Position numbers and translations under genes: made by a program. From an uncultured Clostridia bacterium (GTDB taxonomy: Bacteria; Bacillota; Clostridia; Oscillospirales; Acutalibacteraceae), in the NCBI GenBank assembly GCA_947170465.1, contig CAMVTS010000007.1:1-61229 (forward strand): a stretch of DNA of 61,229 bases. The letters are read 5' to 3'. The notes beneath the pieces were generated by a model that was given only the letters and a program-made list of their open reading frames with translations, did no database searches and was not told where the DNA came from. Positions 3,782 to 57,569 of the stretch are shown piece by piece (positions within the stretch are counted from its first letter, which is position 1; each line of letters opens with the position of its first letter).

Positions 3782-4474
3782 ATGACAGGCATTATCTGCG
3801 CAATGCAGCTGGAAGCCGACGGGATTCTGGCGCTCTGCGAAAACACGAAAACCGAAACCATCTACGGCATGAATTTTACCACCGGCACACTCCACGGCAA
3901 GGAGCTGACCGTGGTTGTCTGCGGCGAAGGCAAGGTCAACGCCGCTATGTGCACGACCACGCTGATTGACCGTTACCATCCGGCGCTGGTTATCAACAGC
4001 GGCGTCGGCGGCGCGCTGTCTCCGCTTGTCAGTATCGGCGATTTGGTCGTCGGCAGCAAGGCGGTTGAGCACGATATGAACATGACGCCCCTGGGCTATC
4101 AGCAGGGCGAGGTTTGTATTCCCGGCGGCAAGCTGATGTATTTTGAGTGCGATAAGGCGGCTGCCACCAAGCTGGCGGCAATCGGCAAGACTATTCCCGA
4201 CACCCGCGTCGCACAGGGCATTATCGCCAGCGGCGACGTCTTTATTTCCGACCGCAAAAAGCGCCTCCTGCTCAACACGCGCTTCGGCGCTGTCGCCTGT
4301 GAGATGGAGGGTGCCGCCATCGGTCACGTCTGCCATTGCTGCGGCGTACCCTTCGCGATTCTCAGAGCCATCTCCGACGACCTCGACGAGAACAAGGGAA
4401 TGGATTTCAACAAGTTCTGCCGTCTTGCCGCGGAGAAAACCGTCAGGGTGATTGATGGGTTTATGGAGAATTAG
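3782..4474 (+). CDS. mtnN: 5'-methylthioadenosine/S-adenosylhomocysteine nucleosidase
   Basis: A 230-residue purine nucleoside phosphorylase-fold enzyme that removes adenine from methylthioadenosine, S-adenosylhomocysteine and 5'-deoxyadenosine. It begins with the family's IICAMQLEADGI (the acidic residue near 12 is the usual general acid). It has GEGKVNAAMCTT, NSGVGGAL, ASGDVFIS, CEMEGAAIGHVC (substrate-binding Met-Glu pair) and LRAISDDLDE with the catalytic Asp. Length and order are normal. AAAGGAG precedes the start. It sits behind rsmE in one transcription unit. Confidence 0.95.
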   Translation: MTGIICAMQLEADGILALCENTKTETIYGMNFTTGTLHGKELTVVVCGEGKVNAAMCTTTLIDRYHPALVINSGVGGALSPLVSIGDLVVGSKAVEHDMNMTPLGYQQGEVCIPGGKLMYFECDKAAATKLAAIGKTIPDTRVAQGIIASGDVFISDRKKRLLLNTRFGAVACEMEGAAIGHVCHCCGVPFAILRAISDDLDENKGMDFNKFCRLAAEKTVRVIDGFMEN

Positions 4475-28800: not shown

Positions 28801-31800
28801 CGCCACCAGTCTCACACTCAACGCATTTGCGAATCCGAGTGCAACGACCTATGATGTTTATGTCAAAGTGACGCCTGATGAGCATTATGAGGTGACCGGA
28901 TGGTCGCAAGAGCCTGTCGGAACACCGACCAAAGTGGGCGACGTGGTAACAGCCAAGTTTACCGTTACCAACGACGTTACCATCACGCCGACGATTGCCA
29001 AGAAGAAGCATAACGTTGTCTTTACCAACCAGAATACCGGCGGTACGGTTGCAGTGAATAGTCAAACTGCTTCTCCGCAGGTTGTCAATGAGGCGGAAAC
29101 CTATACGGTAACGCTTACGCCTGCAACAGGCTATGAGGTCAACACCTTTACTATCAACGGCACCAGCCATAAAGGCGATTTGACGAATCCTGACGCTGCA
29201 TGCAGCTACACAGCGACAATGGGTAACGCGGACGAAACCATTTCCGTCACCTTTACCAAAATCAACTATTCGCTTTCCGGTGCTGCAACCCCGGATTACG
29301 GTTCGGTGAAATTCTACTCTGATTCCGATTGTACGAATGAAATCACCACCGCTACCTATCAGCAGACCATATACGCAAAATTCCTTCCGGCAACCGCGTA
29401 TTACGCGCTCGGCAGCTATTCTGTCAGTAGCGGTTCCGGCGCAACCGTCAACAGCGGAACCGGCAACATCCGTCCGGTTGTAATGGGTGCGCATGATTTA
29501 ACGCTGACAGCTAATGTTGTCGCGGCAACTCCGGTTATCGGCTCGTGCCCGAGCATGACGGTTCCCGCCAACGAGGGCTTCACATACGCGCAGCCTTCTG
29601 TAACGCCGCCTGCAAACAGCACGCTGACATTCAGCTATACGTTCCAGGGTGAGACGAACAACACCGGTACCTTTACAGCGCCTGTCACTGCCGGAACCTA
29701 TCCACTGACCATTACGGCGAGCAACAAGCCTGACGGCATTTCTGTTGCGGCAACAGCGTCTGTAACGGTTACTATTACTGTTACTTACCGCAACGAAGAA
29801 ATCACCTACTACGTGGATATGCACGACAACGTCATTTCCGGTTCTGGCGTTGAGGTGGCAATTGTGGACGCACAGAACAGCAGCAAAGTGAAATCTATCG
29901 ATGGCGAGGCGTGCAAAGCAACACTTACGCAGCAAGGAGTTGGTACCAATCACCCCAGCTCGGTCTATGCTGCCGGCATTAAAACACCGTTTGTTAAAAA
30001 CGGCGATGAATATAATGCCCTCCATATCCGCATAACCTATAATGGTGTATCTTATTGGAAGGAACTCAATTCCAACCAGATTAAAACAGTGCAGAATACA
30101 AAAAGTATGTGGTTTGAAGCCGTCAACGAATCTTCACTGGATTTGAAGCTGACAACGGCAGATTACACAGGAACGCCGAAGGTTGCCAGCGGTAAAAAAC
30201 GAATTTACGTGGCAAAGCCCATCAGTTGGGAAAGTGACACACCGTGGACAACGGTTGGTATCTATTACTGGGATAAGGATATTTCGACCGAATGGAAATC
30301 AGCAGATAATGAAATGAAGCATCTTGGTAAGGATAGTGACTATCATTACTACTATGCGGACATTCCTTCCGGCGCGAACAATATTATCTTCCAGGGTCGC
30401 GAGGGAGTCGATACCTATTCTCAGACAAATAATATCGAGAATATCAAGACGAACAGCTTCGTGCTCTATAAAGACGGTACCAGCCCCAAGGGTAAGGCTG
30501 CTGACGCGGCAGCTGCCATTCCTGCGCTGACAAAGTATATCAGCACTGCTCAGATGAATAAGGGCGCCAACAATGTTGATATTTCTCCTGTGAGATACAC
30601 AGCTGCCAGCGTAAAATACGACAATTCGAATGATACCGTGGTAAGCGTCACTGATGAGGGCAAAATTAATGCGCTGAAGTCCGGAACCGCTACCATCACC
30701 GTGAAGCTGCACAGCTCTATCAGCGAAAAAATAACAACCCCCGGAGCTTACTTCAATGATGACGTGATTTCCTTCGACATTTCAGTTACCGTCCATGATC
30801 CGAATCAGTTCTATGGCTTCAACATCATGTCTCTCGGCACCTCAGAGTATACGTTTGATATTCCGCAGGTGAGCAACAACAACAAAATCATTCAGCCGGG
30901 TTATTTCGTCATGGGTAAGAATGACATCGCCGTTACCGTTACAGGTCTGGTTGGCGTTGGCAGCTCCACAAAATCCGCTGTCATTACCTCAGACGAAACA
31001 GTTTCTGTAACGGATCTCGGTTCCCAGACCACGCGGGTCAAAGTAAAATATGCCGATCCGGAAGAAGCGTTTACCACTGATTACAGCAATATTTGTCTGA
31101 ACGGAACCATTACAACCCGTTCTATTCGCACGGATGCCGGCTCCCGCTATGGCTTTACCGAATGGCAAAAGGCGGATGAATCGAAGCCTGACTATAAGGT
31201 GAAAAAGACCATTTCTGAACATCAGACTGAACCAGCGCTGGATGGCGTTGAAACGGCAGTGACTTCGAGCTTTGAATTTGACCGCACTTCCACCTATTAT
31301 AAGGCGGTGTTCACTCCTTATGAGTATGTTGATGTTACCTTCACGTATCAATACTACGAGTACAAGCCGCGTCTGGTTGATGGTTTGTTCAACTATCAGT
31401 ATGAGTACGACAACGGGGACTATCTGGATGAAACGGTCGGCACCGAAAAGTTTAAAGCGTGTCATAATGCAAAAGAATATGTCAGAACAAAGTTTGAGGT
31501 GCGCAAAAAGACAGCAGCATCGATAGAAGTAGATGACGATTTGGTCACTCAGGCATGCAAGGCGATTGAGGCAATGCCGCAGAACAGTTACTATGACTAC
31601 TCCATTGACACATCTTGTATTACAATCGAGAGCAGAAACGCAGGCACCTATTCTGCAGAGGTTACGGTAAAACTGAAACATAAGCCCAGAATGTATTCGG
31701 TTTATGTGAATGGCGGCGAGAATCCGATAGGAGAGTATTACTATCAGCAGTATGTAACCGTCAACAAGCCGGTTGGACTTGGCGAACATGTGAAGTGGTA

Positions 31801-32680
31801 TGAATGTGAGGACAATGATGTTGATTTAACAACCGGTACGCCCAATTATCCGCTGCTTTCAACTGGCAACAGCTATAAATTCCGCGTAAAGGATGATACT
31901 CACCTTCGTGTTGTCAACGGTTCGCTTAACGCGCAGGACTTCAACCGTTCCGAGGTTGACTTCATGGATTATGACCTGACGCATCTGAACAATAAAGAGT
32001 ATGTCATGCAGAACTTCTATATTGCAGACTTCTTTAATCCGATGGAAACATACGAAACGGCAACCAGAAAATGTGACGACGCAACCTTTGTTGGCGGCGG
32101 CGTGGTTTACTATTCCATGAAGGGCGGTTCTCCGAACAGCGCAACTGCCGCTTATGTGGATCAGGACACCGGCACGATTGACAAGGAAGCCATCGCGGAG
32201 ATGCTGAAGGAGAATATCGAGTCCAGTATTACTGAGGATAAATACAGCAAGACGTTTGAGCAGTATGAGGCGGAGCTGGGTACGGATGAAGCGATGAAAA
32301 TCGCCTACGGAACGGAAATTCCGGTAACCCAGAACTATGACCGAAACGGTAAAACCGGCATTATGTACCGCTATTTGCCCTTGCAGACGTATCAGACGAA
32401 TAAAAACAAGGAGCTTATTGTTGATGAAAACGGCAATTTTGTAACCACCGTCAACGACAACACCTTCCGTTACTCCAACACACTGCAGGCATATCAGTAT
32501 ATCTACGCCAGCGGCAACGAGAACAAAGAGACCAATGAAGGAAGAAACATGAGGCTGTATGCTTATTATGTCTATTCCTACCAAGGCTATGATTTGGAGA
32601 CCAATGTTCCCGAAACGCGCTATGTGGTGGTGATTTCGGATAACTATTCTGACGCTTCCACCTACTGGGCAGGCAACTAA
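22823..32680 (+). CDS. Giant secreted multidomain repeat protein (3285 residues) with starch-binding-like modules
   Basis: A 3285-residue exported protein. Residues 1-35 are a signal peptide. In order I see: an aromatic N-terminal region; a FIVAR-like helical region (about 302-374); two Ig-like domains (about 380-553); a carbohydrate-module-like stretch (about 556-670); an InlB B-type (Flg_new) repeat with GYTFGGWYKE...TTLYAKW (about 671-740); many divergent bacterial repeat domains with GGTVT and GYxFxxW patterns; and two regions resembling CBM25/26 starch-binding modules (IYIWTTINDERNPVVDWPG near 1780; VGIYYWDKDISTEW near 2475). The C-terminal about 450 residues are unassigned. No LPXTG, dockerin or SLH anchor is visible. 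It is probably a surface adhesin for glycan or starch (inference). A terminator follows. Confidence 0.8.
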   Translation: MKKRIRHFSKSTLSIILSLCMLISCVSVGLIATDAARIAEEERVGWDTNSLTFNGQIKTDKSGYSSEWQTITMSGNSSNYYYFWAIIEKNKTVSFGFKDQWNQYLKGGTKTAVNATNSTTGISRNYWTGMSKNESGADLSFTTPNSTYSQYIVIVQCWTDNWNVRVDMIPCIPSTVNVHYQDQYGSYHKYLYAWQSYHGGSSYNSTNAVTNYTNHVGDRELNGSYDSVPQDTRAAEGVTEYTQDWNTHNLSYYDYPSNYGVFYVKMKDSSGASQDLTINRDDVSGKSEIWVYNASNDNTTIVVTDRVALRNKINDTDIVNAYNSGANTVYTVESYTTFKTAYQDAARKFSAYATTQAEINSAITSLQSAFDALEIASTPSLDSFTIDGAASKTLNIGEEATLASTTSHTDNEVTYSTASDAISITGTTVKALKPVSSATITATLVDGETYTKTVTVKVNTPALTLTYNPATILTGGATTKAPTVTATGANASSEISNKTFTITSGGTSGTVAADGKVTSTSVAGTVTVQVTGTVSHNGVSYTSATGTANITVQEPASVYFKYDQSGGTNTKGLDGTKMAYDNSLNLYKLSVDLEKGTEGNWYYIVVYDASESNNLSHYDEVLTEELRTGGGHTLYSGNNEDHPIHLVATVTGTYNFYFDAANNKLYVEYPHTVTFNMNNHGDAPDSQVITYGGKATKPDDPTATGYTFGGWYKESDCTNAFNFDTDTITANTTLYAKWSSLPQLGAPDIKYNNAATTPVTMDAAEGSKARITWAAVNNAGSYEIFKDGDPLGTTTNLYFDIERGYSHSGTYTVKAIPGNAAAHSPSNASNGIQFTFNKVQLTAPVVAADHDWVLHGHGVTFSISGGSSTATLGKDFKYQHTGADETSYTDVSGSSWSTENLTNTTAADATPTFKFKAVALKTDYFADSSETSKQITVKPSFALDSGKTSTFTPGTGTEMVYDATKGAYYLSVTVSDTSKYYFRFNQKDANRKWAGDWNGNYPNVHDVVVDGEKVAAATDVSGWDNKASLHYSGAAKKIIVWFDYAAKKTWIVGNSTTYQVTFTQPSSAGSSIKVADSTTSPHTFYEGETAEYTVTAGTGYVITSVTANGSTVAVDRQSTYTGSFSVSADTSVSAEIVPQYTITKGEAAGGSFTVKRDNMEVTQFIAGDELTLTATADAYHDFTKFAVTGGKTATFNNSPATLDTTGATGNITITPTFTAKSYSYTTEAYYSATGADGSYTNALSNAVTPASGSATYENGVTVTAASKDGYSFYKWSVSGGEVDNANSASTTFKPTANGAKATALYKRAYTITSNTPTGGTVTVDKEHPVAGESYTVTVAASTGYKFKSLTVGGASVTVSNNKYTATASGETATVPVVAEFEPDTTLEFYIAGRFHVRTAAGSNDWTNSFDSGDWANDGGKNIKFSYDHGTLYKVETYASPKELTTTISNQTPWFFVYDKTHDKQWHPASGVSFDNTTTSANLTSNNAENNVRFNSSSTDTPVTIYFDAATHKLSYEIPVFYDVTITEATGGTVTASPARATEDTEITLTVTPDTGYHLDSLTVIKDGEQGPIQVTNNKFTMPAGNVTVTAVFAKNVYSGFIYQAKASESGNALTDAAFETYTHDLSSAVTGAATGNEIDGIAINAAKSGYTFYKWVVTGGTLTKADTTASNTFKPTANGATLTAYFRKNYTLSLTQSTGGAIAADKTELAAGDAYTITATPESGQKLSKLLVGGTDVISSVENQIYNGKAGGNSDTITVVPTFTTIPPTTVRINKRVTNYTHIYIWTTINDERNPVVDWPGEEFKNDSDWTVDPVYPDYYVRNFQKDWGGFQVIFSSGKDTTQTADSAVYENGEQYFIDFVDGTNAPVLTKGLPTYTIAGTKGMMGSEWSTTDTNNNMTAGDNNTFTLEKTNVSKGHHEFKVVTNHDYENGSYPTNNQTLDVLYNHSTVNFTYSPTAASNKLTAVVSGGDFEVKTEATNGTAVISQSAPVSGDATSLTLNAFANPSATTYDVYVKVTPDEHYEVTGWSQEPVGTPTKVGDVVTAKFTVTNDVTITPTIAKKKHNVVFTNQNTGGTVAVNSQTASPQVVNEAETYTVTLTPATGYEVNTFTINGTSHKGDLTNPDAACSYTATMGNADETISVTFTKINYSLSGAATPDYGSVKFYSDSDCTNEITTATYQQTIYAKFLPATAYYALGSYSVSSGSGATVNSGTGNIRPVVMGAHDLTLTANVVAATPVIGSCPSMTVPANEGFTYAQPSVTPPANSTLTFSYTFQGETNNTGTFTAPVTAGTYPLTITASNKPDGISVAATASVTVTITVTYRNEEITYYVDMHDNVISGSGVEVAIVDAQNSSKVKSIDGEACKATLTQQGVGTNHPSSVYAAGIKTPFVKNGDEYNALHIRITYNGVSYWKELNSNQIKTVQNTKSMWFEAVNESSLDLKLTTADYTGTPKVASGKKRIYVAKPISWESDTPWTTVGIYYWDKDISTEWKSADNEMKHLGKDSDYHYYYADIPSGANNIIFQGREGVDTYSQTNNIENIKTNSFVLYKDGTSPKGKAADAAAAIPALTKYISTAQMNKGANNVDISPVRYTAASVKYDNSNDTVVSVTDEGKINALKSGTATITVKLHSSISEKITTPGAYFNDDVISFDISVTVHDPNQFYGFNIMSLGTSEYTFDIPQVSNNNKIIQPGYFVMGKNDIAVTVTGLVGVGSSTKSAVITSDETVSVTDLGSQTTRVKVKYADPEEAFTTDYSNICLNGTITTRSIRTDAGSRYGFTEWQKADESKPDYKVKKTISEHQTEPALDGVETAVTSSFEFDRTSTYYKAVFTPYEYVDVTFTYQYYEYKPRLVDGLFNYQYEYDNGDYLDETVGTEKFKACHNAKEYVRTKFEVRKKTAASIEVDDDLVTQACKAIEAMPQNSYYDYSIDTSCITIESRNAGTYSAEVTVKLKHKPRMYSVYVNGGENPIGEYYYQQYVTVNKPVGLGEHVKWYECEDNDVDLTTGTPNYPLLSTGNSYKFRVKDDTHLRVVNGSLNAQDFNRSEVDFMDYDLTHLNNKEYVMQNFYIADFFNPMETYETATRKCDDATFVGGGVVYYSMKGGSPNSATAAYVDQDTGTIDKEAIAEMLKENIESSITEDKYSKTFEQYEAELGTDEAMKIAYGTEIPVTQNYDRNGKTGIMYRYLPLQTYQTNKNKELIVDENGNFVTTVNDNTFRYSNTLQAYQYIYASGNENKETNEGRNMRLYAYYVYSYQGYDLETNVPETRYVVVISDNYSDASTYWAGN

Positions 32681-47120: not shown

Positions 47121-47155
47121 TTGTCATGATGTTGTCATACTCGGTGTGCTATACT
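47121..47155 (+). promoter_or_regulatory. Pho-box-like promoter, copy 1
   Basis: The direct repeat TTGTCAT-GATG-TTGTCAT (47121-47138) is followed after 11 nt by an extended -10, TGCTATACT (TATACT at 47150-47155). The 7-4-7 layout and the distance to the -10 match the known PhoB box design (CTGTCAT repeats replacing a -35). Nearly the same sequence precedes the gene at 57475 on the minus strand, and a weaker version precedes 49670. Confidence 0.6.
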
Positions 47156-47186
47156 ATAGCCATCAAAGAGAAAAGGAGCCTTCAAA

Positions 47187-47651
47187 ATGAAAAAGATGAC
47201 TGTCAACAACGAATTAACCCTTTCCTATAACGAGCCCTTCACCATCATGACTGCCGGTGAACTGACGAAATACTGCGGCACCGCTAAAAATCACTGGGGC
47301 ATTGCCGATAAGGCAAGCCACAGCCTGTTCATCGTCTCGTGGACAAAACCGGGCTTGCTGAACTTTTTTACCGACGCAAAGACGATTCTGAATCAGATTG
47401 AGCGCTGCATGAAAAGAAATCTCCGCCAATATGACCGCGAGGACAGCTTTATCATCAGCGTCGCCGGCAAGGACGCGCGCGGTATCCGCTTTACCTACGC
47501 TGCAAACGACGTGAACGTGATGCAAATCGGCGAAACCTCCGTGTTCCGCGCGAACAAAAAGTTCTACGTGATTCAGTACGTTTCCCGCGTGGAAGGCGAC
47601 GCGCATAACCGCGGCGTGTATCACAACATCTTAAAGACCGTTACCGTATAA
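47187..47651 (+). CDS. Conserved-looking cytoplasmic protein of unknown function
   Basis: A 154-residue protein without signal peptide or membrane helix. It is an alpha/beta protein with strands such as FIISVAGKDARGIRFTYAAN and KKFYVIQYVSRVEG. I cannot assign a family. AAAGGAG precedes the start. Its promoter carries the Pho-box-like repeat shared with two genes for envelope proteins, which suggests common control. A terminator follows. Confidence 0.65.
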   Translation: MKKMTVNNELTLSYNEPFTIMTAGELTKYCGTAKNHWGIADKASHSLFIVSWTKPGLLNFFTDAKTILNQIERCMKRNLRQYDREDSFIISVAGKDARGIRFTYAANDVNVMQIGETSVFRANKKFYVIQYVSRVEGDAHNRGVYHNILKTVTV

Positions 47652-47655
47652 CACA

Positions 47656-47696
47656 AAACGGCTCGGAACATTTTGAAGTTCTGAGCCGTTTATTAT
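47656..47696 (+). terminator. Intrinsic terminator after the unknown 154-residue gene
   Basis: The long stem AAACGGCTCGGAAC / GTTCTGAGCCGTTT with loop ATTTTGAA is followed by ATTATT. Confidence 0.75.
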
Positions 47697-47765
47697 TGCG
47701 AAAAAATATGGCGGACGCGCGTTATCTATGGTATACTTATTTTGAAAATATAGGGAGGTGGCGTT

Positions 47766-49286
47766 ATGCTCTATACACCATTAACGAAAAAAGCGCTGAT
47801 GATTTCCTTCAACGCGCATAAAAATCAAACGGACAAAAGCGGCATGCCATACGTCTATCATCCGTTTCACCTCGCTGAGCAGATGGACAGCGAATACGCC
47901 GTCTGCGTCGCCCTGCTGCATGATGTGGTTGAGGACACCGACATGACGCTTGAAGATTTGAGAGAAGCAGGCTTTCCGCCGGAGGTCATCGAAGCGCTGG
48001 CGCTGATGACGCATCATGACGGTGTGCCGTATATGGATTATGTCCGCCGGCTCAGCGGCAATCCGCTGGCGAAGCAGGTCAAGCTGGCAGACCTCCGTCA
48101 CAACAGCGACCTCACCCGGCTGGATTATGTAGATGATACAGCCCGTCGGCGCGTCGAAAAATATCAGCAGGCGATAGACTTGCTTACGGGCAAGGTTCCT
48201 GTTCTGCAAGACCGTATCCGCGGCTGCCTGATTGGCGGCGCGGCAGGAGACGCGCTTGGCTATCCGGTGGAATTTATCTCCGAGAGAGAAATTGATAAAA
48301 GATACGGCTCAGGAGGCATTCAGGAATATGAGATGAGCCGTTACAGCCATAAGGCGCTGATTTCCGACGATACCCAGATGACGCTTTTTTCCGCGGCGGC
48401 GGTGGCGGCATGTATTACACGCGCCAACCATCGCGGCATTGCCGCAGACCCGAGGGTTTACGCCAATTTTGCCTATCAGGGCTGGCTAGTCACGCAGGAA
48501 ATGAGCTTTGACGAGGTGCGCAAAGCCGAAAAAGACAATCAGGTTGACATTTGCGCCGGCTTTTTGATGGAGCAGCCAAAATTATATGCCAGAAGAGCGC
48601 CGGGTATCACCTGCCTTTCCGCGCTGCATACCAGAAAGCGGCAGCGCGAGGAAAAAATATACGTCAACAGCTATGTGAAGGATGTTATCAACAATTCCAA
48701 GGGATGCGGCGGCGTGATGCGCGTGGCGCCTGTCGGCATGCTGAATACCGATGATATGGACTTGCTCGACCGGGAGGGCGCTGAGTTTGCCGCCATTACC
48801 CATTGTCATTCTCTGGGGTATATGCCGGGCGCGGTGCTGACGCATGTCGTTCACCGCTGCCTTTACCGCAAGGGTCAGACGCTCCGGGAGATTGTGGAGG
48901 AAGCGCGCGACTCGGTGGCAAGACTGTATGCTGAGGATGAGCATATCGGCACGCTGGTTGATATTATCAACCTTGCTATCGCACTTTCCGAAAACGACGC
49001 GCCTGACCTTCAGAATATTCACGAGCTTGGAGAAGGCTGGATTGCGGAGGAGGCGCTCGCCATCGCGCTTTATTGCTGCCTGCGCTATCCGGACGACTTT
49101 TCAAAGTGCCTTGTCGTCTCCGTCAACCACAAGGGCGACAGCGATTCTACCGGCGCGATTGCCGGCAATATCCTCGGCGCGTGGTCTGGCTATGAAGCGA
49201 TGGACAACAAGTGGAAGCAAAATCTGGAGCTGTCCGATGTGATGCTGGAGTTGGCGGACAGCATTTACGGCGAGGTGAGAAAGTGA
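47766..49286 (+). CDS. Fusion of RelA/SpoT-like HD hydrolase and ADP-ribosylglycohydrolase
   Basis: A 506-residue two-domain protein. Residues about 1-145 form an HD domain like the ppGpp-hydrolase part of SpoT/Mesh1: His in VYHPFHLAEQM, the HD pair in LLHDVVEDTD, and KLADLRHN. Residues about 152-500 form an ADP-ribosylglycohydrolase of the DraG/ARH type: GCLIGGAAGDALGYPVEF, SDDTQMTLF (metal ligands), and NHKGDSDSTGAIAGNILGA with the C-terminal Asp-Ser-Asp metal site. Each half alone is common; the combination suggests an enzyme that clears both an alarmone-type nucleotide and ADP-ribosyl marks (inference). GGAGGTG precedes the ATG, and an extended -10 (TGGTATACT) lies upstream. Confidence 0.88.
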   Translation: MLYTPLTKKALMISFNAHKNQTDKSGMPYVYHPFHLAEQMDSEYAVCVALLHDVVEDTDMTLEDLREAGFPPEVIEALALMTHHDGVPYMDYVRRLSGNPLAKQVKLADLRHNSDLTRLDYVDDTARRRVEKYQQAIDLLTGKVPVLQDRIRGCLIGGAAGDALGYPVEFISEREIDKRYGSGGIQEYEMSRYSHKALISDDTQMTLFSAAAVAACITRANHRGIAADPRVYANFAYQGWLVTQEMSFDEVRKAEKDNQVDICAGFLMEQPKLYARRAPGITCLSALHTRKRQREEKIYVNSYVKDVINNSKGCGGVMRVAPVGMLNTDDMDLLDREGAEFAAITHCHSLGYMPGAVLTHVVHRCLYRKGQTLREIVEEARDSVARLYAEDEHIGTLVDIINLAIALSENDAPDLQNIHELGEGWIAEEALAIALYCCLRYPDDFSKCLVVSVNHKGDSDSTGAIAGNILGAWSGYEAMDNKWKQNLELSDVMLELADSIYGEVRK

Positions 49287-49510
49287 AGCTGTTTAGACGT
49301 TTTTCGTCCGCGGAATTTGACAAACCGGCGTTTCCTCCCGAAACTCATGACGCGGTGATTCGCAGCTCCATCTGCACCGGCGAAAAGGTCGCCGGCTTCA
49401 GGAACAAAAAGGACGGCAATTTCACCGAGGTCATGCTGATTCGTTCGGACAAGGACTTGGAGGAGTTCAAGACGCGGTACCATGTCACAACCATCAAAAC
49501 AATCTATTGA
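49283..49510 (+). CDS. Small protein coupled to the HD-ADP-ribosylglycohydrolase gene
   Basis: A 75-residue soluble protein (starting KLFRRFSSAEFDK; GFRNKKDGNFTEVMLIR in the middle). The GTG start overlaps the stop of the preceding gene (GTGA) and is preceded by GAGGTGA, so translation is coupled. No family is recognised. By position it may assist or regulate the fusion enzyme. A terminator follows. Confidence 0.65.
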   Translation: MKLFRRFSSAEFDKPAFPPETHDAVIRSSICTGEKVAGFRNKKDGNFTEVMLIRSDKDLEEFKTRYHVTTIKTIY

Positions 49511-49515
49511 CAGCG

Positions 49516-49548
49516 TTCCCCACAGCCGGCACTGTGGGGAAAATTTTT
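49516..49548 (+). terminator. Intrinsic terminator
   Basis: The stem TTCCCCACAG / CTGTGGGGAA with loop CCGGCA is followed by AATTTTTTG. Confidence 0.8.
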
Positions 49549-49573
49549 TGAAAAATTCGGATTTTCTCGTTTT

Positions 49574-49608
49574 TTGTCAGGGTTTTGTTGTACTGTGTTT
49601 GCTATACT
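49574..49608 (+). promoter_or_regulatory. Pho-box-like promoter, copy 2 (weaker)
   Basis: TTGTCAG-GGTT-TTGTTGT (49574-49591), then 11 nt, then TGCTATACT (TATACT at 49603-49608). Spacing is identical to the copies at 47121 and 57535; the second half-site has two mismatches. Confidence 0.5.
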
Positions 49609-49669
49609 AAGCTTGTAAAAAACAAAGCAATCAAAATGAAATCAACAAAATGAAAAAGGAGAAATCATC

Positions 49670-50425
49670 ATGAAAAAGACCATCATCATTCCTGCAATCA
49701 TCGCTGTTATTGCCGCAACGGCTTCCGCATTCGCCATGACCGCCTGCAATCCTTCCGTTGCTCAGTCCGCCGCCAAAATCGTGGCGGCGACTCCCGTCAA
49801 GAAGGCAATCGAAGTTGTGACCCAGAAGCCGACCAGTGTTCCCACTACTGCACCGACTACCGCCGCACCGACCACTGCGCCTGCTACGCAGGCTTCCAAA
49901 AAGGCTCCCATTCAGGAAAAGAAGGAAAATCCGGCTCCCAAAAAGGCTCCCGTTCAGGAAAAGAAGGAAAATCCGGCTCCCAAGACCGATGCCGAGAAGG
50001 TTTATGCTGCCGCCAAGGAAGCCGTTGCCAAGTGCACCAACGAGGGCATGACCAAGGAGCAGAAGCTCAGAGCGGCTTTCGATTACCTCAAGAACAATTA
50101 CATGGAAGGCATTCGCCGCAGCGACTACAGAGAGATGGACTGGCCGGTGGTTTACGGCACGGATATGCTCATCAACGGCAAGGGCGACTGCTTCAGCTAT
50201 GGCGCTTCCTTCGCGTACATGGCAAAGGCGATCGGCTGCTCCGACTGCTACGCCTGCAACAGCGGCGGACACGGCTGGGCTGAGGTCGAGGGCAAAATCT
50301 ACGACCCCGAATGGAGCAAGCACAGCACCAACTACTCCTACTTCGGCATGAGCTACGACGAGCCCTGCGACGTTCCCTACAAGGGCGCGCTCGGTTCCGC
50401 CGGCTGGATGCACGTCGCGGTTTGA
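49670..50425 (+). CDS. Transglutaminase-like lipoprotein
   Basis: A 251-residue exported protein. The signal ends in FAMTAC, an acceptable lipobox with the Cys near residue 26. Then comes a Thr/Pro/Ala-rich linker (about 50-75) and a duplicated 14-residue Lys/Glu/Pro unit (KKAPIQEKKENPAP and KKAPVQEKKENPAP). The C-terminal domain (about 105-251) is transglutaminase-like, with the Cys in GKGDCFSYGASFAYMAKAIG, the His in GGHGWAEVEG and the Asp in IYDPEW forming the expected Cys-His-Asp triad. Such bacterial domains act as cysteine proteases, amidases or cross-linkers at the cell surface; which one is unknown. The promoter carries the Pho-box-like repeat. Confidence 0.82.
   Translation: MKKTIIIPAIIAVIAATASAFAMTACNPSVAQSAAKIVAATPVKKAIEVVTQKPTSVPTTAPTTAAPTTAPATQASKKAPIQEKKENPAPKKAPVQEKKENPAPKTDAEKVYAAAKEAVAKCTNEGMTKEQKLRAAFDYLKNNYMEGIRRSDYREMDWPVVYGTDMLINGKGDCFSYGASFAYMAKAIGCSDCYACNSGGHGWAEVEGKIYDPEWSKHSTNYSYFGMSYDEPCDVPYKGALGSAGWMHVAV
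49896..49979 (+). repeat. Two tandem 42-bp units inside the transglutaminase-like gene
   Basis: Units 49896-49937 and 49938-49979 differ at only one or two positions and encode the duplicated 14-residue Lys/Glu/Pro linker. Near-identity of DNA points to a recent duplication; copy number may vary between strains. Confidence 0.85.
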
Positions 50426-50464
50426 TATATTATACTATCTGACAACTCACAATTACCCACTGAA

Positions 50465-50492
50465 AAACGGACGTGTTGCCACGTCCGTTTGG
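50465..50492. terminator. Bidirectional terminator between convergent genes
   Basis: The stem AAACGGACGTG / CACGTCCGTTT with loop TTGC lies between the transglutaminase-like and CotH-dockerin stop codons, with A/T runs on both sides. Confidence 0.8.
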
Positions 50493-50493
50493 T

Positions 50494-51933
50494 TTACTTT
50501 ACGCCGGTTTTGCCGACGGGTGACGTCACCTCGTAGCCTGCGAGGTACATCTGGATTTCGGTCGCGTCTGCAATGCTCATTTTCTCACCGCGAACGCTGC
50601 CGCGCAGTTCGATTTCACCGTCCGGATCGTCCTCCAGCTCGCTGAGCAGCCTTTGCAGCAGCGTCACGTCCTCAATGCTGACAGCGCCGCTGCCGTCGCA
50701 GTCGCCGACGGTGTAGTACAGTTCGTTAATCTTGAAATAATCGTCCAGCCACGCAGAGCGCGTCTGTCCCCATTCAAGGAGGTAATCGACGTTTTCCTGA
50801 TAGGTGGGGAAGGGCGGCATCATGACGTTGATTGCGTAGTAGATGCGCCAGCCCGCTTCCTTGTAGTTGCGCGCAAATACGTCGCCATACGTGTCAATCA
50901 GTTGTTCCGCTCTGCCGCCTTCGACAAACAGGCTGCGGAAATAATCCGCGTGACGCGCGTACTCGCGGCGGATTTCCAGATTGAACCAGTCGTAGGTGCA
51001 CAGCTTGGCGTAGTACAGCTTGTCGTTGATGTGCAGTCCTTCCGGAAGAATACAAATCGCGGAACGCGGTGAGAAGTCCTTGTTGATGTTGCCCATTGTC
51101 AGGTCATAGTCCCACGGAGGTCCTGCGTGGAATTTGCCGCCTCTGTAGTAGAAATACACGGAGCTGAAATCGAAGTCGTTCGTCTTGAGGAACTCGTTGA
51201 GCACGTAGTACTTGACGAAGGACGGCATGTCTATGATTTCCTCCATGCGTTCACGGTCGCCGCTGGCAACCGCGTCGTCGAGCTTGTCAATCAGGGTTTT
51301 GATATTCGCCTGCATGGCTTCATCCGGCTCGTCCGGGTCGTTCACGCCAAAGCGCAGACCGCTCTTGCTGGTGATGTAGGTGGTGCCCTCGTCAACACGG
51401 CTGCGCTCATATTCCAGCGTAAATTCACCGCTTTTATCATCGATATCCGCCTTTACCGGCGTCATCAGCGTGTAACAGCCGCGGAAGGTGCCGTCCAGCC
51501 ACAGCTCCACGTAACGCTGACGGGAGGTGTTCTCGATGCCCAGCTCATTCGCCATTTCAAAGGCGAGGTAGTTGCGCAGGAAGGTCGGGTCAAAGGCGTT
51601 GGCGAGCAGTACCCATTTTTTGCTCTTGCCCATGCCGAGCAAGTCCTGCTTTTTGTCAAACTTGAAGGTAAAGGGCTTTTTTGCCACCATGGCGGTGCTG
51701 TTTCCTCTCACCTTGACAACCATGTCCTTGTCAATCACGGTGTCCTCGCTGTCGGTGATGACGACGTGGCCGTTGACGTAGCCGTCCTCTTTCTTGAGCG
51801 AGGTACCGTTGCCGTCGGCGGTGGTGATGTAAATTTTCGGCACCTCCGCTTTTTCGGTTTCGGCTGCGGAGACAAGGGGAACGGCGCACACTAGCATGGC
51901 GCAGGCGAGCAGGATGGCAAGTATTTGTTTCAT
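50494..51933 (-). CDS. Secreted CotH-family protein with C-terminal dockerin
   Basis: A 479-residue exported protein. Residues 1-23 are a signal peptide. Residues about 33-385 are a CotH kinase-like domain: VKVRGNSTAMVAKKPFTFKF (ATP-binding part), KWVLLANAFDPTFLRNYLAFE, and GPPWDYDLTMGN with the catalytic/metal Asp residues. CotH of Bacillus phosphorylates spore-coat proteins, and CotH-dockerin fusions are known in cellulosome-type bacteria. Residues about 413-470 are a dockerin whose second segment is degenerate: the first has DCDGSGAVSIED, but the second (GSVRGEKMSIAD) lacks the Asp/Asn residues of the calcium loop. It lies 5 nt behind trmO. Confidence 0.88.
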   Translation of the reverse strand: MKQILAILLACAMLVCAVPLVSAAETEKAEVPKIYITTADGNGTSLKKEDGYVNGHVVITDSEDTVIDKDMVVKVRGNSTAMVAKKPFTFKFDKKQDLLGMGKSKKWVLLANAFDPTFLRNYLAFEMANELGIENTSRQRYVELWLDGTFRGCYTLMTPVKADIDDKSGEFTLEYERSRVDEGTTYITSKSGLRFGVNDPDEPDEAMQANIKTLIDKLDDAVASGDRERMEEIIDMPSFVKYYVLNEFLKTNDFDFSSVYFYYRGGKFHAGPPWDYDLTMGNINKDFSPRSAICILPEGLHINDKLYYAKLCTYDWFNLEIRREYARHADYFRSLFVEGGRAEQLIDTYGDVFARNYKEAGWRIYYAINVMMPPFPTYQENVDYLLEWGQTRSAWLDDYFKINELYYTVGDCDGSGAVSIEDVTLLQRLLSELEDDPDGEIELRGSVRGEKMSIADATEIQMYLAGYEVTSPVGKTGVK

Positions 51934-51938
51934 TGCGT

Positions 51939-52619
51939 TTACTCCTTGTGAATTTTTTCAGCAGAAAGGACGGTGACGGTGCTGTTTGCCACCCTGAAGC
52001 GCACGTCATAGCCGGCGTAGGCAAAGCCGTATACGCGCTGCGGGTCGTCCTGATAGCCCGGTCTGGGGTCATAGGAGAGCGCTTCGTGCAGGGCGGCAAG
52101 CTGTGTTTCGTTAAAGAGCGCCGCCACCTCCGGCGGCATTGTCACGCGGAGCGGTTCTGTCGAGCCGTAGCTGCCGCCCTTTGCGCTGGGAACGCTGTCG
52201 GCAAAGGGGAGATAGGGCTTGATGTCCAGAATCGCCGTGCCGTTCATCAAATCGGCGCCGGCAACGGTCAGCACCATGCCGCGTTCGCCGTCCGGTTTGG
52301 CGGAAATCAGCTTCACGCGCGTCAGTCCGATGGGATTCGGACGGTTGGGAGAACGCGTGGCGAATACGCCGGCGCGCTTGTTGCCGCCAAGCTTCGGCGG
52401 TCTCACCGTCGGCGACCAGCTGCGCTTGCCCATCGGGTCAAACAGCCAGATCAGCCACAGGTACTCAAACGTCTCGATTCCCCTGAACGCCTCCGGCTGG
52501 CGAAAGTCGGGCTCCATCACGATTTCCGAGAGCAGATGCTCCGACATGCCGCTCTGACGCGGCAGCCCGAATTTGGTCGGGAAATCATTGTAAATCCGCG
52601 CGATGGGTTCAAACTCCAC
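51939..52619 (-). CDS. trmO: tRNA (N6-threonylcarbamoyladenosine37-N6)-methyltransferase
   Basis: A 226-residue TrmO/TsaA (UPF0066) protein that methylates t6A37 in tRNA-Thr using S-adenosylmethionine. It begins MEFEPIARIYNDFPTKFGLPRQ. It has FEYLWLIWLFD, the signature GVFATRSPNRPNPIGLTRVKL (about 105-125), and LDIKPYLPFADS, all diagnostic, followed by the usual C-terminal domain. It has a good promoter, and the CotH-dockerin gene follows 5 nt later, so a housekeeping tRNA gene and a secreted kinase-like protein share a transcript. Confidence 0.94.
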   Translation of the reverse strand: MEFEPIARIYNDFPTKFGLPRQSGMSEHLLSEIVMEPDFRQPEAFRGIETFEYLWLIWLFDPMGKRSWSPTVRPPKLGGNKRAGVFATRSPNRPNPIGLTRVKLISAKPDGERGMVLTVAGADLMNGTAILDIKPYLPFADSVPSAKGGSYGSTEPLRVTMPPEVAALFNETQLAALHEALSYDPRPGYQDDPQRVYGFAYAGYDVRFRVANSTVTVLSAEKIHKE

Positions 52620-52649
52620 GCCGTCACATCCTTGTAATTTGCTGTGTAT

Positions 52650-52678
52650 AGTATACCATTCTATCGAATAAATTGCAA
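52650..52678 (-). promoter_or_regulatory. Sigma-A promoter for trmO and the CotH-dockerin gene
   Basis: On the minus strand TTGCAA (52673-52678), 17 nt spacer, extended -10 TGGTATACT (TATACT at 52650-52655), about 31 nt before the trmO start. Confidence 0.7.
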
Positions 52679-52695
52679 TCCTAAAATTATTCCGG

Positions 52696-52724
52696 TTGAC
52701 CTGAGGCTGGTTTTTGTGTAAAAT
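52696..52724 (+). promoter_or_regulatory. Sigma-A promoter for the TIR remnant and deaminase-SLOG gene
   Basis: TTGACC (52696-52701), 17 nt spacer, TAAAAT (52719-52724), about 45 nt before the start codon of the TIR remnant. Confidence 0.7.
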
Positions 52725-52769
52725 GAATGTAAGAACAGATATCTTTTTCGAAGGGGCAGGAGAAAAGAC

Positions 52770-52811
52770 ATGAGTAAACCGGCAGATGTTTTTATCAGCT
52801 ATAAGTCATAA
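52770..52811 (+). pseudogene. Remnant of a TIR-domain gene (first 13 codons)
   Basis: An ATG preceded by GGAGAAAAGAC opens the peptide MSKPADVFISYKS and then a TAA stop. DVFISYKS is the characteristic first beta-strand and BB-side start of bacterial TIR domains, where a domain of about 130 residues should follow. The rest is missing, and only 47 nt separate the stop from the next gene, so an internal deletion probably removed the body of the gene while keeping promoter, ribosome binding site and start. Confidence 0.7.
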
Positions 52812-52858
52812 TCAATAAGAGACAAGAAAGAAAAGCTGTTATAAGAGGAATCACCGAG

Positions 52859-55309
52859 ATGTTTGGAAAATTTTATCTTGACAAGGAAAAGGACGTCATT
52901 ATCGAGCTGGATATGACGAAAGAGGGCTTGTTCTACACCCTGCGCACGCCCAATCATGCCAAGGGTAATTTGATTACCAATCTGGCAAATCTCTGCTCGC
53001 TGCCGCTCAGTACCGGCGACGACGGCCTCAAGGTGATACAGGGCGGGGTGCCGTGCTATGTGGACGAGCGCAACCGCGAGGTATACGTCCTGCGGCTGGC
53101 GGACACCAAGGTCGCCAACATCTATCCCGACGGCGAAATTGAGCGCAAGGCGTATATTCCGGCGATATCCAAAACCCTGATGAGCCAGACCAAGGACTAC
53201 CGTCTTGACGCGCGCAAAACACTGGTCAAGACCTATATCCGCCGTGAATACAAATTCCGCACCGATTTGCACACCCACATGAACGCCAACCTCGACGCGG
53301 ATATCCTGATAGCGCTCGGCATTTTTCACCAGATTCGCTATCCGCTCTACTACGTCAAAAAGCTGAACCTCCGGCTGACGCAGGCGCAGAAGGATATCCT
53401 GTCGGAGCGCCGTCAGGAGGCCGCCAAGGGCTTTGTCCATTCCGCGCTGACCGGCAAGTACCTCACGCGCAAGATTGACGACAACACCTTTCTCAATTTT
53501 GCCGACTTGATTCTCAACAATCCCGACGCCGCCTATAATATTCCGAAAATCCGCGCGTCTCTGACGATTCTGAAGGACGGACAGGCAGTGTTCACCAATC
53601 TGGAGAAGGTCTATCTCTACCGCTACGTGTTCACCAAGGGACAGCCCTCTGAGGAGAGAATAGCGCTTGACAATTACCGCGACATTCCCGACGGGGATAT
53701 CGCACAAGCAGTCGGACAAATGCTGCGAGACAAAGAACAGCCTGCCTACGCGCACTTGACGCTGTTTCAGAATAAGCTGCTGTGGGTGGCAAGAGGCTTT
53801 CAGCGACGCGGTGTACTCTATGCGGAAATTTCCGACACCACCCTTGTCAAGCCGGAGGCTTCGGTGCACATGCTGCGGCAGGTGCATGAGGTCATGCCGG
53901 AAATCACACGCGAAACCGGCGTGGTGCTGCGCTTTTTGGCGGCTATCCGAAGGATTCCGCTCACCATTGTGCGCGACAATGCCGTACAGGACGACGTCGC
54001 GCAGCAGCTGCGCATTATCAGGGCGCTCGCCGTTGACCCCTACGTCGCCGGCAGCGATATTATCGGCGAGGAAATCAACGATATCCGCGATTTGCGGCAG
54101 GTGCTTGCGGAGCTGGTGATGATTGCCGGAGAAAATCCCGGCTTTGTCATTCGGATTCACGCCGGCGAGAACGACAGTCTGCGCGATAACGTCGCCAATT
54201 CCCTTGCCTGCGTGAAGGACGCGCTGGCTCCCGGTCAGCCCATGCCCCGGCTGCGTATCGGTCACGGACTCTACACCGCCAATCTTCACACGCCCAAGGG
54301 TCAGCAGCTCATTGAACAGCTGCGCGACAGCGGCGCGGTGCTGGAATTTCAGCTCACCTCCAACGTCCGTCTCAACAACCTCAGCACCCTCGGCAGGCAT
54401 CCGCTGCGCGATTACCTCAAGGGCGGCGTGCGGTGCGTACAGGGTACCGACGGCGGCGCGATTTACGGAACCGATTCGATTGACGAGCAGCTCGCGCTTG
54501 AACGCCTGCTCGACCTCTCCTATGAGGAGATGCTGGCAATGCGCCGTGCCGAGGACGAGATTTTTACCGGCAGTCTGCGCACCTTCAACGAACGCGGCGC
54601 GCACTTCCGTCAGCTTTGCGGCGGTGATATAGACAGGTTTCTCCGACAGCGCATTGCGCAGACCAAGGGCGGCGATACCGCCATGAGCATTGCGCCGCAG
54701 AAGCTCGACAGCGAACAAGTCCTGCGCGACCGGATTCGGGAGATTCCCACCGACAAGGTACCGGTGATTCTGCTCGGCGGCAGCTTCAACAGCAGCCGTC
54801 ACGCCACGCGCATGAGAGAGCCGCTCAGAGAACTCCTCCGCGAACTGGTTGACCGTCTTGACCCGGAGCAGGTCTGCTTCGTGATTGGCAGCCGCCTGAC
54901 CGGCTACGAGCGCGAGCTGGTGGAGCTGGCAGCGGATAAATTTGAGATTTTCGCGATTGTGCCCACCCGTCTGAACGCCGCCGAGGTCAAGCGCCTGCGG
55001 CAGAGCGGTGTTGGCGTGCGCGTGTCGATTGAGCCGACGCGCATGGGGCTGTACAAGAGCTTTGCCTATGAGATTTTCAAACGCCGTCCCTCGGTGGTGC
55101 TCGCCTTTGACGGCAATTCCGCCGGCGCCAACACCGTCCAGGAAGCCAAAAACGGCAAGCGCGAGGCGCGTATCTTTGTCAACCGCCATGCGAGGGTGCT
55201 CTACGCCAAGGCGCAGACGATTCAGGGCTACGTCAGCGTGATTGACGGCGTTCAGGACGTCGATATGATTCTCGCCTCCGTCCGCCGCGTCCGGAACGCG
55301 ATGAAATAA
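52859..55309 (+). CDS. Adenosine-deaminase-like protein with C-terminal SLOG-like nucleotide-sensing domain
   Basis: An 816-residue cytoplasmic protein. Residues 1-130 are an unassigned N-terminal domain. Residues about 133-600 form an adenosine/AMP-deaminase-like metal barrel: DLHTHMN (His138, His140), RIHAGEN (His434, Glu437), RIGHG (His469) and TSNVRLNN...VQGTDGG (Asp531). The usual second Asp of the TDDP motif is Gly here, so the substrate may differ from adenosine. Residues about 633-816 look like a SLOG/LOG Rossmann domain (VILLGGSFNSSRHA, CFVIGSRLTGYERELVELA, VLAFDGNSAGANTVQEAK). SLOG domains often bind nucleotides or NAD-derived signals in defence systems. The gene directly follows a TIR remnant under one promoter. 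ADA assignment strong; SLOG assignment moderate; defence role inferred. Confidence 0.8.
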   Translation: MFGKFYLDKEKDVIIELDMTKEGLFYTLRTPNHAKGNLITNLANLCSLPLSTGDDGLKVIQGGVPCYVDERNREVYVLRLADTKVANIYPDGEIERKAYIPAISKTLMSQTKDYRLDARKTLVKTYIRREYKFRTDLHTHMNANLDADILIALGIFHQIRYPLYYVKKLNLRLTQAQKDILSERRQEAAKGFVHSALTGKYLTRKIDDNTFLNFADLILNNPDAAYNIPKIRASLTILKDGQAVFTNLEKVYLYRYVFTKGQPSEERIALDNYRDIPDGDIAQAVGQMLRDKEQPAYAHLTLFQNKLLWVARGFQRRGVLYAEISDTTLVKPEASVHMLRQVHEVMPEITRETGVVLRFLAAIRRIPLTIVRDNAVQDDVAQQLRIIRALAVDPYVAGSDIIGEEINDIRDLRQVLAELVMIAGENPGFVIRIHAGENDSLRDNVANSLACVKDALAPGQPMPRLRIGHGLYTANLHTPKGQQLIEQLRDSGAVLEFQLTSNVRLNNLSTLGRHPLRDYLKGGVRCVQGTDGGAIYGTDSIDEQLALERLLDLSYEEMLAMRRAEDEIFTGSLRTFNERGAHFRQLCGGDIDRFLRQRIAQTKGGDTAMSIAPQKLDSEQVLRDRIREIPTDKVPVILLGGSFNSSRHATRMREPLRELLRELVDRLDPEQVCFVIGSRLTGYERELVELAADKFEIFAIVPTRLNAAEVKRLRQSGVGVRVSIEPTRMGLYKSFAYEIFKRRPSVVLAFDGNSAGANTVQEAKNGKREARIFVNRHARVLYAKAQTIQGYVSVIDGVQDVDMILASVRRVRNAMK

Positions 55310-55373
55310 TTTCAGTATTTTTTAATCTTGCAGTGGTAGAATACTGACAAATCCAGACAAGGAGGTATTCACC

Positions 55374-56786
55374 ATGAAATTCAAAGTGACAAAATCGTAC
55401 ATCATACTGATATCCCTGCTGACGGCGACTGCGACGGGCATGACAATCAGCGGCTGCGGAAGCCAAGGGCAGACTTCCGCGACCTCGGCGGTATCCGAAG
55501 CGACGCAGAGTGAAGCGACAACCGCGGCAAGCACGACAGCGCCGGCAACCACCAAACGCCTTTCGGAGAGCGACGTTACCGTCAATGAGACTGTTTCCAA
55601 CACAGAGGACGGCGGTCACGCGATAACGGCGGACGGCGAGAGCGCCGATTACAGCCATATCCTTGTCACCAAAACCGGCGAAGCCGACGGCGACGAGGCG
55701 GACTTCTACGGCGAGAACGCCGCGATATTTGCCACCAACGGCGGCACGCTGAATCTCAGCGATATCGTCGTCAAGACAGACGGCACGCACGCGAACGGCG
55801 TATTCAGCTACGGCGAGGGGACGACGGTCAATATTGCCGATTCCTATATCAACACCACCGGCAACTGCTCCGGCGGTCTGATGACGACCGGCGGCGGTAC
55901 CATGAACGCGAGCAACCTCACCATTGAAACCTCCGGCAATTCCTCGGCGGCAATCCGTTCCGACAGAGGCGGCGGCACCGTCAACGTCAGCGGCGGTTAT
56001 TACGCGACAAGCGGCAAGGGCTCGCCGGTGATTTATTCCACCGCTGATATCACGGTCAGCGACGCGGAGATGGTTTCCACCGCTTCTCAGGGAGTTGTGG
56101 TTGAGGGCAAAAACTCCGTAACGCTCAACAACGTTTCGCTGACAGCCGACAATAATCAGAAGAACAGCGACAAATCCAGCTTCTATCAGGCGGTCATGAT
56201 TTATCAGTCCATGTCGGGCGACGCGGCGCAGGGACTTTCCGGCTTCACCATGAACGGCGGCAGTCTTGTCAATCAGAACGGCGACGTGTTTTTTGTCAAC
56301 AATACCGCGACCGAAATCAGCCTGAATAACGCCGAAATCACCAACAACGGCGACGGCGTATTTCTCAGAGCGGCTGCCGCCGGTTGGGGCAAGGAAGGCT
56401 CGAACGGCGGTCAGGTCAAGCTGACGGCGGAAAACCAGACCATCAACGGCGATATGCTGGTTGACAGCGTTTCGACGCTCAATCTCTATCTCAGGAGCAA
56501 TTCCGCCTTTACCGGCGCCATCAATCCCGACGGCGCGCAGGGTGACGTCTACGTCGAAATCGAAAGCGGCTCCACATGGACGCTGACGGCGGATTCCTAT
56601 ATTTCCTCGCTCACCTGCGACGCGAGTGCTATCCGGCTTAACGGTCACAAGCTCTTTATCGACGGCAAGGAATACACAGAAGGCTCCGCTTTACAGGGAA
56701 CAGCAATTGAAATCCAGGTTTCTTCCTCCGGCGGCGGTCATGAAGGCGGCAAGCCGGAAGGCAATCCTCCGGCAAAACCCGACTAA
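55374..56786 (+). CDS. Lipoprotein with right-handed beta-helix-like repeats
   Basis: A 470-residue exported lipoprotein. The signal ends with the lipobox TISGC (Cys at about residue 28), followed by a Ser/Thr/Ala-rich linker (about 30-65). Residues about 80-430 consist of short strands with recurring Gly, Asn and Thr (GGTLNLSDIVVKT, GGGTMNASNLTIET, GGGTVNVSGGYYAT), the pattern of parallel beta-helix or polymorphic adhesin-like surface proteins. The tail is Gly/Pro/Lys rich. No catalytic motif is seen; adhesion or polysaccharide binding is likely. AAGGAGG precedes the start and a terminator follows. Confidence 0.78.
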   Translation: MKFKVTKSYIILISLLTATATGMTISGCGSQGQTSATSAVSEATQSEATTAASTTAPATTKRLSESDVTVNETVSNTEDGGHAITADGESADYSHILVTKTGEADGDEADFYGENAAIFATNGGTLNLSDIVVKTDGTHANGVFSYGEGTTVNIADSYINTTGNCSGGLMTTGGGTMNASNLTIETSGNSSAAIRSDRGGGTVNVSGGYYATSGKGSPVIYSTADITVSDAEMVSTASQGVVVEGKNSVTLNNVSLTADNNQKNSDKSSFYQAVMIYQSMSGDAAQGLSGFTMNGGSLVNQNGDVFFVNNTATEISLNNAEITNNGDGVFLRAAAAGWGKEGSNGGQVKLTAENQTINGDMLVDSVSTLNLYLRSNSAFTGAINPDGAQGDVYVEIESGSTWTLTADSYISSLTCDASAIRLNGHKLFIDGKEYTEGSALQGTAIEIQVSSSGGGHEGGKPEGNPPAKPD

Positions 56787-56793
56787 TACAAAA

Positions 56794-56832
56794 CACCGCC
56801 TGATTCACAGCGAATCGGGCGGTGCGTTTTAT
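56794..56832. terminator. Intrinsic terminator after the beta-helix lipoprotein gene
   Basis: The stem CACCGCCTGATTC / GAATCGGGCGGTG with loop ACAGC is followed by CGTTTTATT. It lies between convergent genes and has an A-run on the other side. Confidence 0.8.
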
Positions 56833-56854
56833 TATGAAAGAGGTGATGTGTCTG

Positions 56855-57475
56855 TTATTCCGCGTTCTGCCAGCCGGTGCCGTTGTGTACCGGAATCACG
56901 GCGGTGAGCTCGGCTGCGGCTTCGGTTGCGGGCTGGGTCACTTTTTCGTCGAGCTGCTTCTGGAGCTGCCTGACGTTCTGCTGCAAGGTCTCGATTGCCT
57001 TCTTGCTTTCTTCTCTCTCAGCGGCGAGCTTCTTTTCCTCGGCGGCTTTTTTTGCCTCGGCGAGCTTTTTGGCTTCGGCTGCCTTCTTTGCTTCCGCGGC
57101 TTTTTTTGCTTCGGCTGCTTTTTGGGCTTCGGCGGCTTTCTTAGCTTCCTCCGCCTTCTTGTCCGCTGCTACCTTTTCTTCAACCGCTTTCTTTGCGGCG
57201 GCTGCCATTTGCTTCTCGGCGGTCTGCCTGGCAATGACGGCCTGCTTCTCCTGTGCGGCTCTCTGCTGGATTAACTTCTGCGCCTGCTGCTTTGCTAAAT
57301 CCAATGCGGAGGCTTTCTTTTCCGCCGCAACGGTGGCGCTCTGGGTGGTGGCTGCCTTCTGCTTGTTGTTGTTGATGACGTTGACGCCGACGACGGTTCC
57401 GATAGCGGATACGCCTGCGATGGCTGCGAGTACAATGGCGATGATGGCGACTTTCTTTTCGTTGTTCTTTTTCAT
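56855..57475 (-). CDS. TolA-like Ala/Lys/Glu-rich coiled-coil membrane protein
   Basis: A 206-residue protein with a short basic N-terminus, one membrane segment (about 9-31, VAIIAIVLAAIAGVSAIGTVVGV) and a long Ala/Lys/Glu helix. Repeats of AEAKKAAEAKK in the middle resemble the stalk of TolA. A second coiled coil (EESKKAIETLQQNVRQLQKQLDEK) is followed by a short C-terminal tail. It probably stands out from the membrane as a rod; partners are unknown. The ATG at 57475 follows AAAGGAGA; the open frame extends 35 codons further across the promoter and is not used. The promoter carries the Pho-box-like repeat shared with the gene at 47187. Confidence 0.75.
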   Translation of the reverse strand: MKKNNEKKVAIIAIVLAAIAGVSAIGTVVGVNVINNNKQKAATTQSATVAAEKKASALDLAKQQAQKLIQQRAAQEKQAVIARQTAEKQMAAAAKKAVEEKVAADKKAEEAKKAAEAQKAAEAKKAAEAKKAAEAKKLAEAKKAAEEKKLAAEREESKKAIETLQQNVRQLQKQLDEKVTQPATEAAAELTAVIPVHNGTGWQNAE

Positions 57476-57534
57476 GGTGATGTCTCCTTTAGATTGATTG
57501 TATTCAGTGGGTTTGTTCCCTTGACTGTGACTAA

Positions 57535-57569
57535 AGTATACCAGACCGACTATGACAACATCATGACAA
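57535..57569 (-). promoter_or_regulatory. Pho-box-like promoter, copy 3
   Basis: On the minus strand TTGTCAT-GATG-TTGTCAT (57552-57569), 11 nt, then TATACT with an upstream TGG (57535-57540). Across about 44 nt it differs from the promoter at 47121 at only about five positions. Confidence 0.6.

Follow-up and report, generated by a model that had tools for sequence, protein, structure and literature searches.

Three promoter sites in a stretch of 61,229 nucleotides from an uncultured Clostridia bacterium (the window; its genome is called G000 below) belong, judged by their sequence, to a regulon for secreted and surface proteins. We consider it very probable that this regulon is read by response regulators composed of a receiver and a SARP-like output domain, which work together with LytS-type kinases and which recognize several different repeat words. 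The case is built from the motif and its regulon, the covariation of the half-sites, the co-occurrence and linkage of boxes and regulators, and the matching of recognition helix to word; from these features we infer binding, activation, phosphorylation and the paralogue that would read the window sites.

The Promoter Sites in the Window

The preliminary description had pointed to an identical layout at three promoters, in which two copies of TTGTCAT separated by 4 nt are followed by 11 nt and TATACT. Two of them match TTGTCAT-N4-TTGTCAT-N11-TATAMT with 0 mismatches (47121-47155 on the plus strand and 57535-57569 on the minus strand), and these two, sites 1 and 3, agree as closely as had been stated for about 44 nt. 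Site 2 (49574-49608, plus strand), however, reads TTGTCAG-GGTT-TTGTTGT, which is 3 mismatches away from the TTGTCAT pattern, so that the layout is exact at two of the promoters and degenerate at the third. The TG upstream of TATACT, also noted earlier, is present at all three sites, each time one base 5′ of the hexamer. In shuffles of the window the pattern was matched 0.00 times, even with 3 mismatches allowed.

The repeat in fact has a period of 11 bp: TTGTCATnnTn occurs twice, and 7 nt separate the second unit from the −10 element. When the sites are aligned, they show in succession a T-run, TTGTCAnnnTn, TTGTCATAGTC, nGTnTGn, TATACT and nTAGTCACAGTCAAGGGAA (Table 1). The spacing between TTGTCA and TATACT is 12 and 23 nt, and the reading of the repeat as an ordinary −35 element was rejected because neither copy is at a usable distance. 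The proposal that the direct repeat replaces the −35, and would be bound by a regulator, is supported; there is no −35 at the normal distance from TATACT.

Table 1. Promoter elements and target genes of the window, and tandem boxes in three genomes. E values are genome-wide and refer to a 65-nt profile in whose building the three window sites were included.
Feature	Description	Position	Strand	Profile E value
Site 1, repeat	two 11-bp direct units, TTGTCATGATG TTGTCATACTC	47121..47142	+	2.2e-14
Site 1, −10	TATACT with TG upstream (extended −10), 7 nt past the repeat	47150..47155	+	
Site 1, leader	degenerate nTAGTCACAGTCAAGGGAA element, ATAGCCATCAAAGAGAA	47156..47180	+	
Target gene 1	154-aa soluble protein, weak similarity to DcrB	47187..47651	+	
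Site 2, repeat	degenerate/mixed units, TTGTCAGGGTT TTGTTGTACTG	49574..49595	+	2.8e-10
Site 2, −10	TATACT with TG	49603..49608	+	
Target gene 2	transglutaminase-like lipoprotein	49670..50425	+	
Site 3, repeat	11-bp direct units, TTGTCATGATG TTGTCATAGTC	57548..57569	-	1.9e-19
Site 3, −10	TATACT with TG	57535..57540	-	
Site 3, leader	consensus form, TTAGTCACAGTCAAGGGAACAAACC	57510..57534	-	
Target gene 3	206-aa membrane-anchored rod rich in Ala, Lys and Glu, TolA-like composition	56855..57475	-	
Tandem boxes	TTGCAAAG-type	G000 C5:51449-51591; G021 C58:318-881; G053 C33:22859-23490 (L130, L151, L153)		

A Promoter Class of the Genus

The window sites belong to a promoter class that is found genus-wide and consists of two 11-bp direct repeats TTGnnnnnnnn, 7 nt, TGn-TATAMT and a conserved leader, CACAGTCAAGGGAA, which is probably the start of the transcript. 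G000 contains 8 matches at ≤3 mismatches, all with an ORF and a ribosome-binding site downstream, as compared with 1 match of the reversed pattern; when ≤2 mismatches were allowed, a scan of 60 genomes of the genus gave 60 matches versus 5 for the reversed control. Both counts are above what chance would give, which the preliminary description had named as the alternative outcome of such a scan. The 65-nt profile, derived from sequence only, detects 14 sites in G000 (E ≤ 0.01) and sites in 41 of the 60 relatives, including many sites in other genomes outside its building set. The exact pattern was searched for in 84,980 named species, near relatives possibly being left out, and yielded one match, in an Ignavibacteriae MAG, which is about the chance rate; no match was found in viral contigs.

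The repeats are written in several words, TTGTCAT, TTGTTGTA, TTGCAAAG, TTGTCCCC, TTGTTGGA and TTGTCTTC, all in one frame, and at least four of them are present in G000. The two halves of a box covary: they are identical at 4.27 of the 5 variable positions, against a mean of 1.97 and a maximum of 3.0 for shuffled halves. Promoters with boxes of the TTGCAAAG type also occur in tandem, at a spacing of about 100-130 bp, before one secreted-protein gene (Table 1). Possibly the leader has a separate function, since it is found as ATAGCCACAGTCAAGGGGACA at a promoter of G000 that has no clear 11-bp repeat (C25:23729-23759, L131).

Target Genes

Box targets encode mostly secreted, lipid-anchored or membrane-anchored proteins. 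A signal peptide or membrane segment, recognized as a hydrophobic N-terminus, is predicted for 64 of 75 targets but for only 46 of 176 background ORFs (p=1e-18), which bears out the envelope regulon suspected earlier. Among the products are a chagasin-type (I42) protein, a beta-helix protein and a small-domain family with the sequence GKTSYGYDW. Target gene 1 of the window departs from this rule in that its product is soluble, as few others are. In G052 a homologue with 39% identity is located next to two boxes, on a contig that also carries a SARP-like regulator. Target gene 2 has a paralogue (61% over 139 aa) within a box-driven kinase/regulator operon on contig C151.

Three other ORFs of the window may be mentioned here. 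The one adjoining target gene 1 (47766-49286) combines an N-terminal HD domain (weak match) with an ADP-ribosylglycohydrolase (Pfam E=5e-62), the one downstream of target gene 2 (50494-51933) encodes a CotH-kinase-domain protein (Pfam E=7e-36), and on the plus strand 22823-32680 is a single ORF of 3285 aa.

Response Regulators with a SARP-Like Output Domain

Beside boxes in G032 and G052 there are genes for response regulators in which the receiver is joined to a C-terminal domain that no Pfam model covers. Kinases of the LytS type (PF06580) adjoin the regulator in G032 and the regulators in G000. The receiver is closest to the receivers of LytR/BtsR, and a Pfam search of the regulators returned the receiver only, with no LytTR output domain. 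When a profile of the C-terminal domain was compared with the PDB, the top matches were EmbR (E=0.008) and AfsR (E=0.046), both of which are SARPs, the similarity being weak. The SARP-like output region comprises only about 137 aa and ends shortly past a CDYY..WAE motif; a complete BTAD activation domain is absent, its C-terminal part being truncated.

Boxes and regulators occur together. Both were found in 24 of 60 genomes, the box only in 3, the regulator only in 8 and neither in 25 (Fisher p=4e-7, kinship ignored), and the numbers of boxes and regulators per genome are correlated (Spearman 0.84, kinship again ignored). They are also linked, 29 of 114 boxes lying ≤10 kb from a SARP-like regulator versus 2.5 expected (kinship likewise ignored), where the linkage at the first two regulators is circular because both were found through their nearness to boxes. 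Three genomes (G001, G007 and G048) have a strong box and no detected regulator; two of the three are 85-87% complete. In G018 (contig C68, L348 at about 4106-4150) a box of TTGTTGGA twice, in the near-perfect form TTGTTGGACAT/TTGTTGGACAA, stands before the regulator gene, which suggests that this SARP-like regulator may be self-regulated.

As a side-by-side dimer, SARPs occupy 11-bp direct repeats immediately 5′ of the −10 element and contact the first 8 of the 11 bp; the 3′ repeat is located about 8 bp from the −10 (PMC10936776). The boxes have direct repeats with an 11-bp period as in SARP-type promoters, and the distance from the second 11-mer to TATAMT is 7 nt, in keeping with the SARP-type spacing of about 8 bp.

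Matching of Recognition Helix and Word

Across species, the same type of regulator is found with the same word: with TTGCAAAG at 6 loci, with TTGTTGTA-like words at about 10, with TTGTCCCC at 4 (G005, G053, G036 and G037), with TTGTCTTC at 2 and with TTGTTGGA in G018 and G035, a third TTGTTGGA locus being approximate. G000 contains a regulator of the TTGTCCCC type, and three TTGTCCCC boxes are present elsewhere in its genome.

Residue T88 of AfsR is in contact with base pair −36 (PMC10936776), which is position 5 of the upstream repeat in the register that we read from the numbering in that paper; the equivalent residue of the regulators was taken from the match of the output-domain profile to AfsR. 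Lys at this position goes with C at base 5 of both halves at 14 of 14 loci and Thr at 0 of 15 (p=1.3e-8, kinship ignored), and the regulators with Lys fall into two well-separated subfamilies. Clustering by whole-domain identity at 70-78%, which is too coarse, gave no significant relation to the word, nor did a Mantel test with 15 non-redundant regulators (p about 0.12).

Two regulators of G000 are candidates for reading the window sites. The gene for one is split over contigs C142 and C47, the ends of which overlap by exactly 55 nt. Regulators with its helix type adjoin mixed TTGTTGTA/TTGTCATA boxes in G024 and G046, and it has Thr at the key position, a residue that elsewhere is mostly associated with TTGTT. 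The other is encoded on contig C151 in an operon for a membrane protein, a kinase, the regulator and a transglutaminase-like protein, in front of which there is a TTGTAAG/TTGTCAT box. Most likely TTGTCAT in G000 is read by one of these two regulators, and for the window sites we lean slightly towards that of C142/C47.

Other Readings of the Boxes

OmpR-family sites, too, typically have an 11-bp direct repeat upstream of the −10, and G000 encodes 8 regulators of the OmpR/PhoB family (PF00486), one of which, possibly a core one, might read the boxes, as the preliminary description had thought of an OmpR-family regulator. We regard this as improbable. When 18 genomes were compared, 10 of them with boxes and 8 lacking them, no more than two PF00486 regulators were common to all, their recognition helices are essentially invariant regardless of the repeat word or the presence of boxes, and no PF00486 regulator was found that tracks both box presence and word; G033 has 8 boxes, yet only the two core regulators. 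The OmpR analogy is nevertheless close in fold class, because SARPs have an OmpR-type winged helix, but it is wrong in family and signal.

The boxes could also be parts of a promoter/leader cassette copied by duplication or recombination, the repeat having no dedicated regulator. The similarity runs on into the leader CACAGTCAAGGGAA, and a clear repeat is missing from the G000 promoter at C25:23729, which does have the leader. This explanation is nonetheless quite unlikely, since the flanks and the genes are unrelated, since different words appear in one frame with halves that match far above shuffled halves, and since the words follow the regulator type.

Proteobacterial PhoB boxes have a 7-4-7 layout, and on this likeness it had been suspected that the boxes are Pho boxes, that PhoB binds to them and that the regulon answers phosphate limitation; this is very unlikely indeed, since the targets are secreted proteins, G000 has no recognizable match to PstS, the TTGTCAT box is absent from the pstS loci of relatives (best fits with 5-8 mismatches), and in the genus a separate Pho-type box, TTTACAT-N4-TTTACAT (L054 5200-5332; L078; L228; L231), is found at the pstS promoters of several relatives and at a G000 operon for what by sequence are a PhoB-type regulator, a kinase and a Na/Pi cotransporter. 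Phosphate genes were not found in the box regulon.

Proposed Mechanism and Its Breadth

For regulation by receiver/SARP-like proteins we propose that the two 11-bp repeats would be occupied by two adjacent copies of the regulator through their predicted winged helices, and that these copies would bring RNA polymerase to a promoter which has an extended −10 but lacks a good −35. The LytS-type membrane kinase encoded beside the regulator would phosphorylate it. Paralogous kinase/regulator pairs in one genome would read different five-base words in the constant frame TTG-NNNNN-nnn, and with a different word for each pair separate sets of surface proteins could be switched separately.

A broader proposal is that there is a recognition code for receiver-SARP regulators throughout the class, in which TTG-NNNNN-nnn occurs twice, a few helix residues determine the five-base word, paralogous pairs partition sets of secreted proteins and the rule extends beyond the genus; here we see the chances as evenly balanced. 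When 293 genomes from 181 genera of the class were sampled, 46 genomes (42 genera) had matches to the output-domain profile, and some of these matches are within larger proteins. At several of these loci in other families the regulator is accompanied by perfect 11-bp repeats, among them TTGTTGTCCTT twice, TTGTTGCGGTT twice and TGTCACGG twice, the first two each 7 nt before TATAAT. A word-free repeat detector, applied to the full regions of other genera, gave 9 matches versus about 4 expected from control loci (0.2 in shuffles); because the enrichment over control loci is about twofold, the extension to other genera is only suggestive.

A dedicated study of regulators with the SARP-like output domain was not found in a literature search over 5.4 million papers. 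The analysis provides a candidate binding site, a regulon and a proposed specificity rule for a two-component family whose output domain has no Pfam model; it connects its kinases with many unannotated secreted proteins, and it makes the regulons predictable from sequence.

Comparison with Known Systems

With the Pho box of PhoB/PhoP the boxes have in common a tandem direct repeat with an 11-bp period in place of the −35; they differ from it in the word, which for the Pho box of the genus is TTTACAT, and in the family of the regulator. The PF06580-type kinase and the LytR/BtsR-like receiver are shared with the LytS/LytTR systems, whereas the output domain is not LytTR, and LytTR sites differ from 11-bp tandem units.

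Shared with the SARP systems (AfsR, EmbR, ActII-4 and relatives) are the 11-bp direct repeats, which overlap the −35 region and end a few bp before the −10; a weak profile match to EmbR and AfsR points to an OmpR-type winged helix in the regulators as well. The systems differ in that the domain here serves as output of a receiver-containing response regulator with a LytS-type kinase, in that the BTAD part is truncated, in that several words coexist in one genome, and in their targets, which for SARPs are antibiotic clusters and here are secreted and surface proteins. Regulation by SARPs at direct repeats is known; what would be new is a two-component form of it with a word code.
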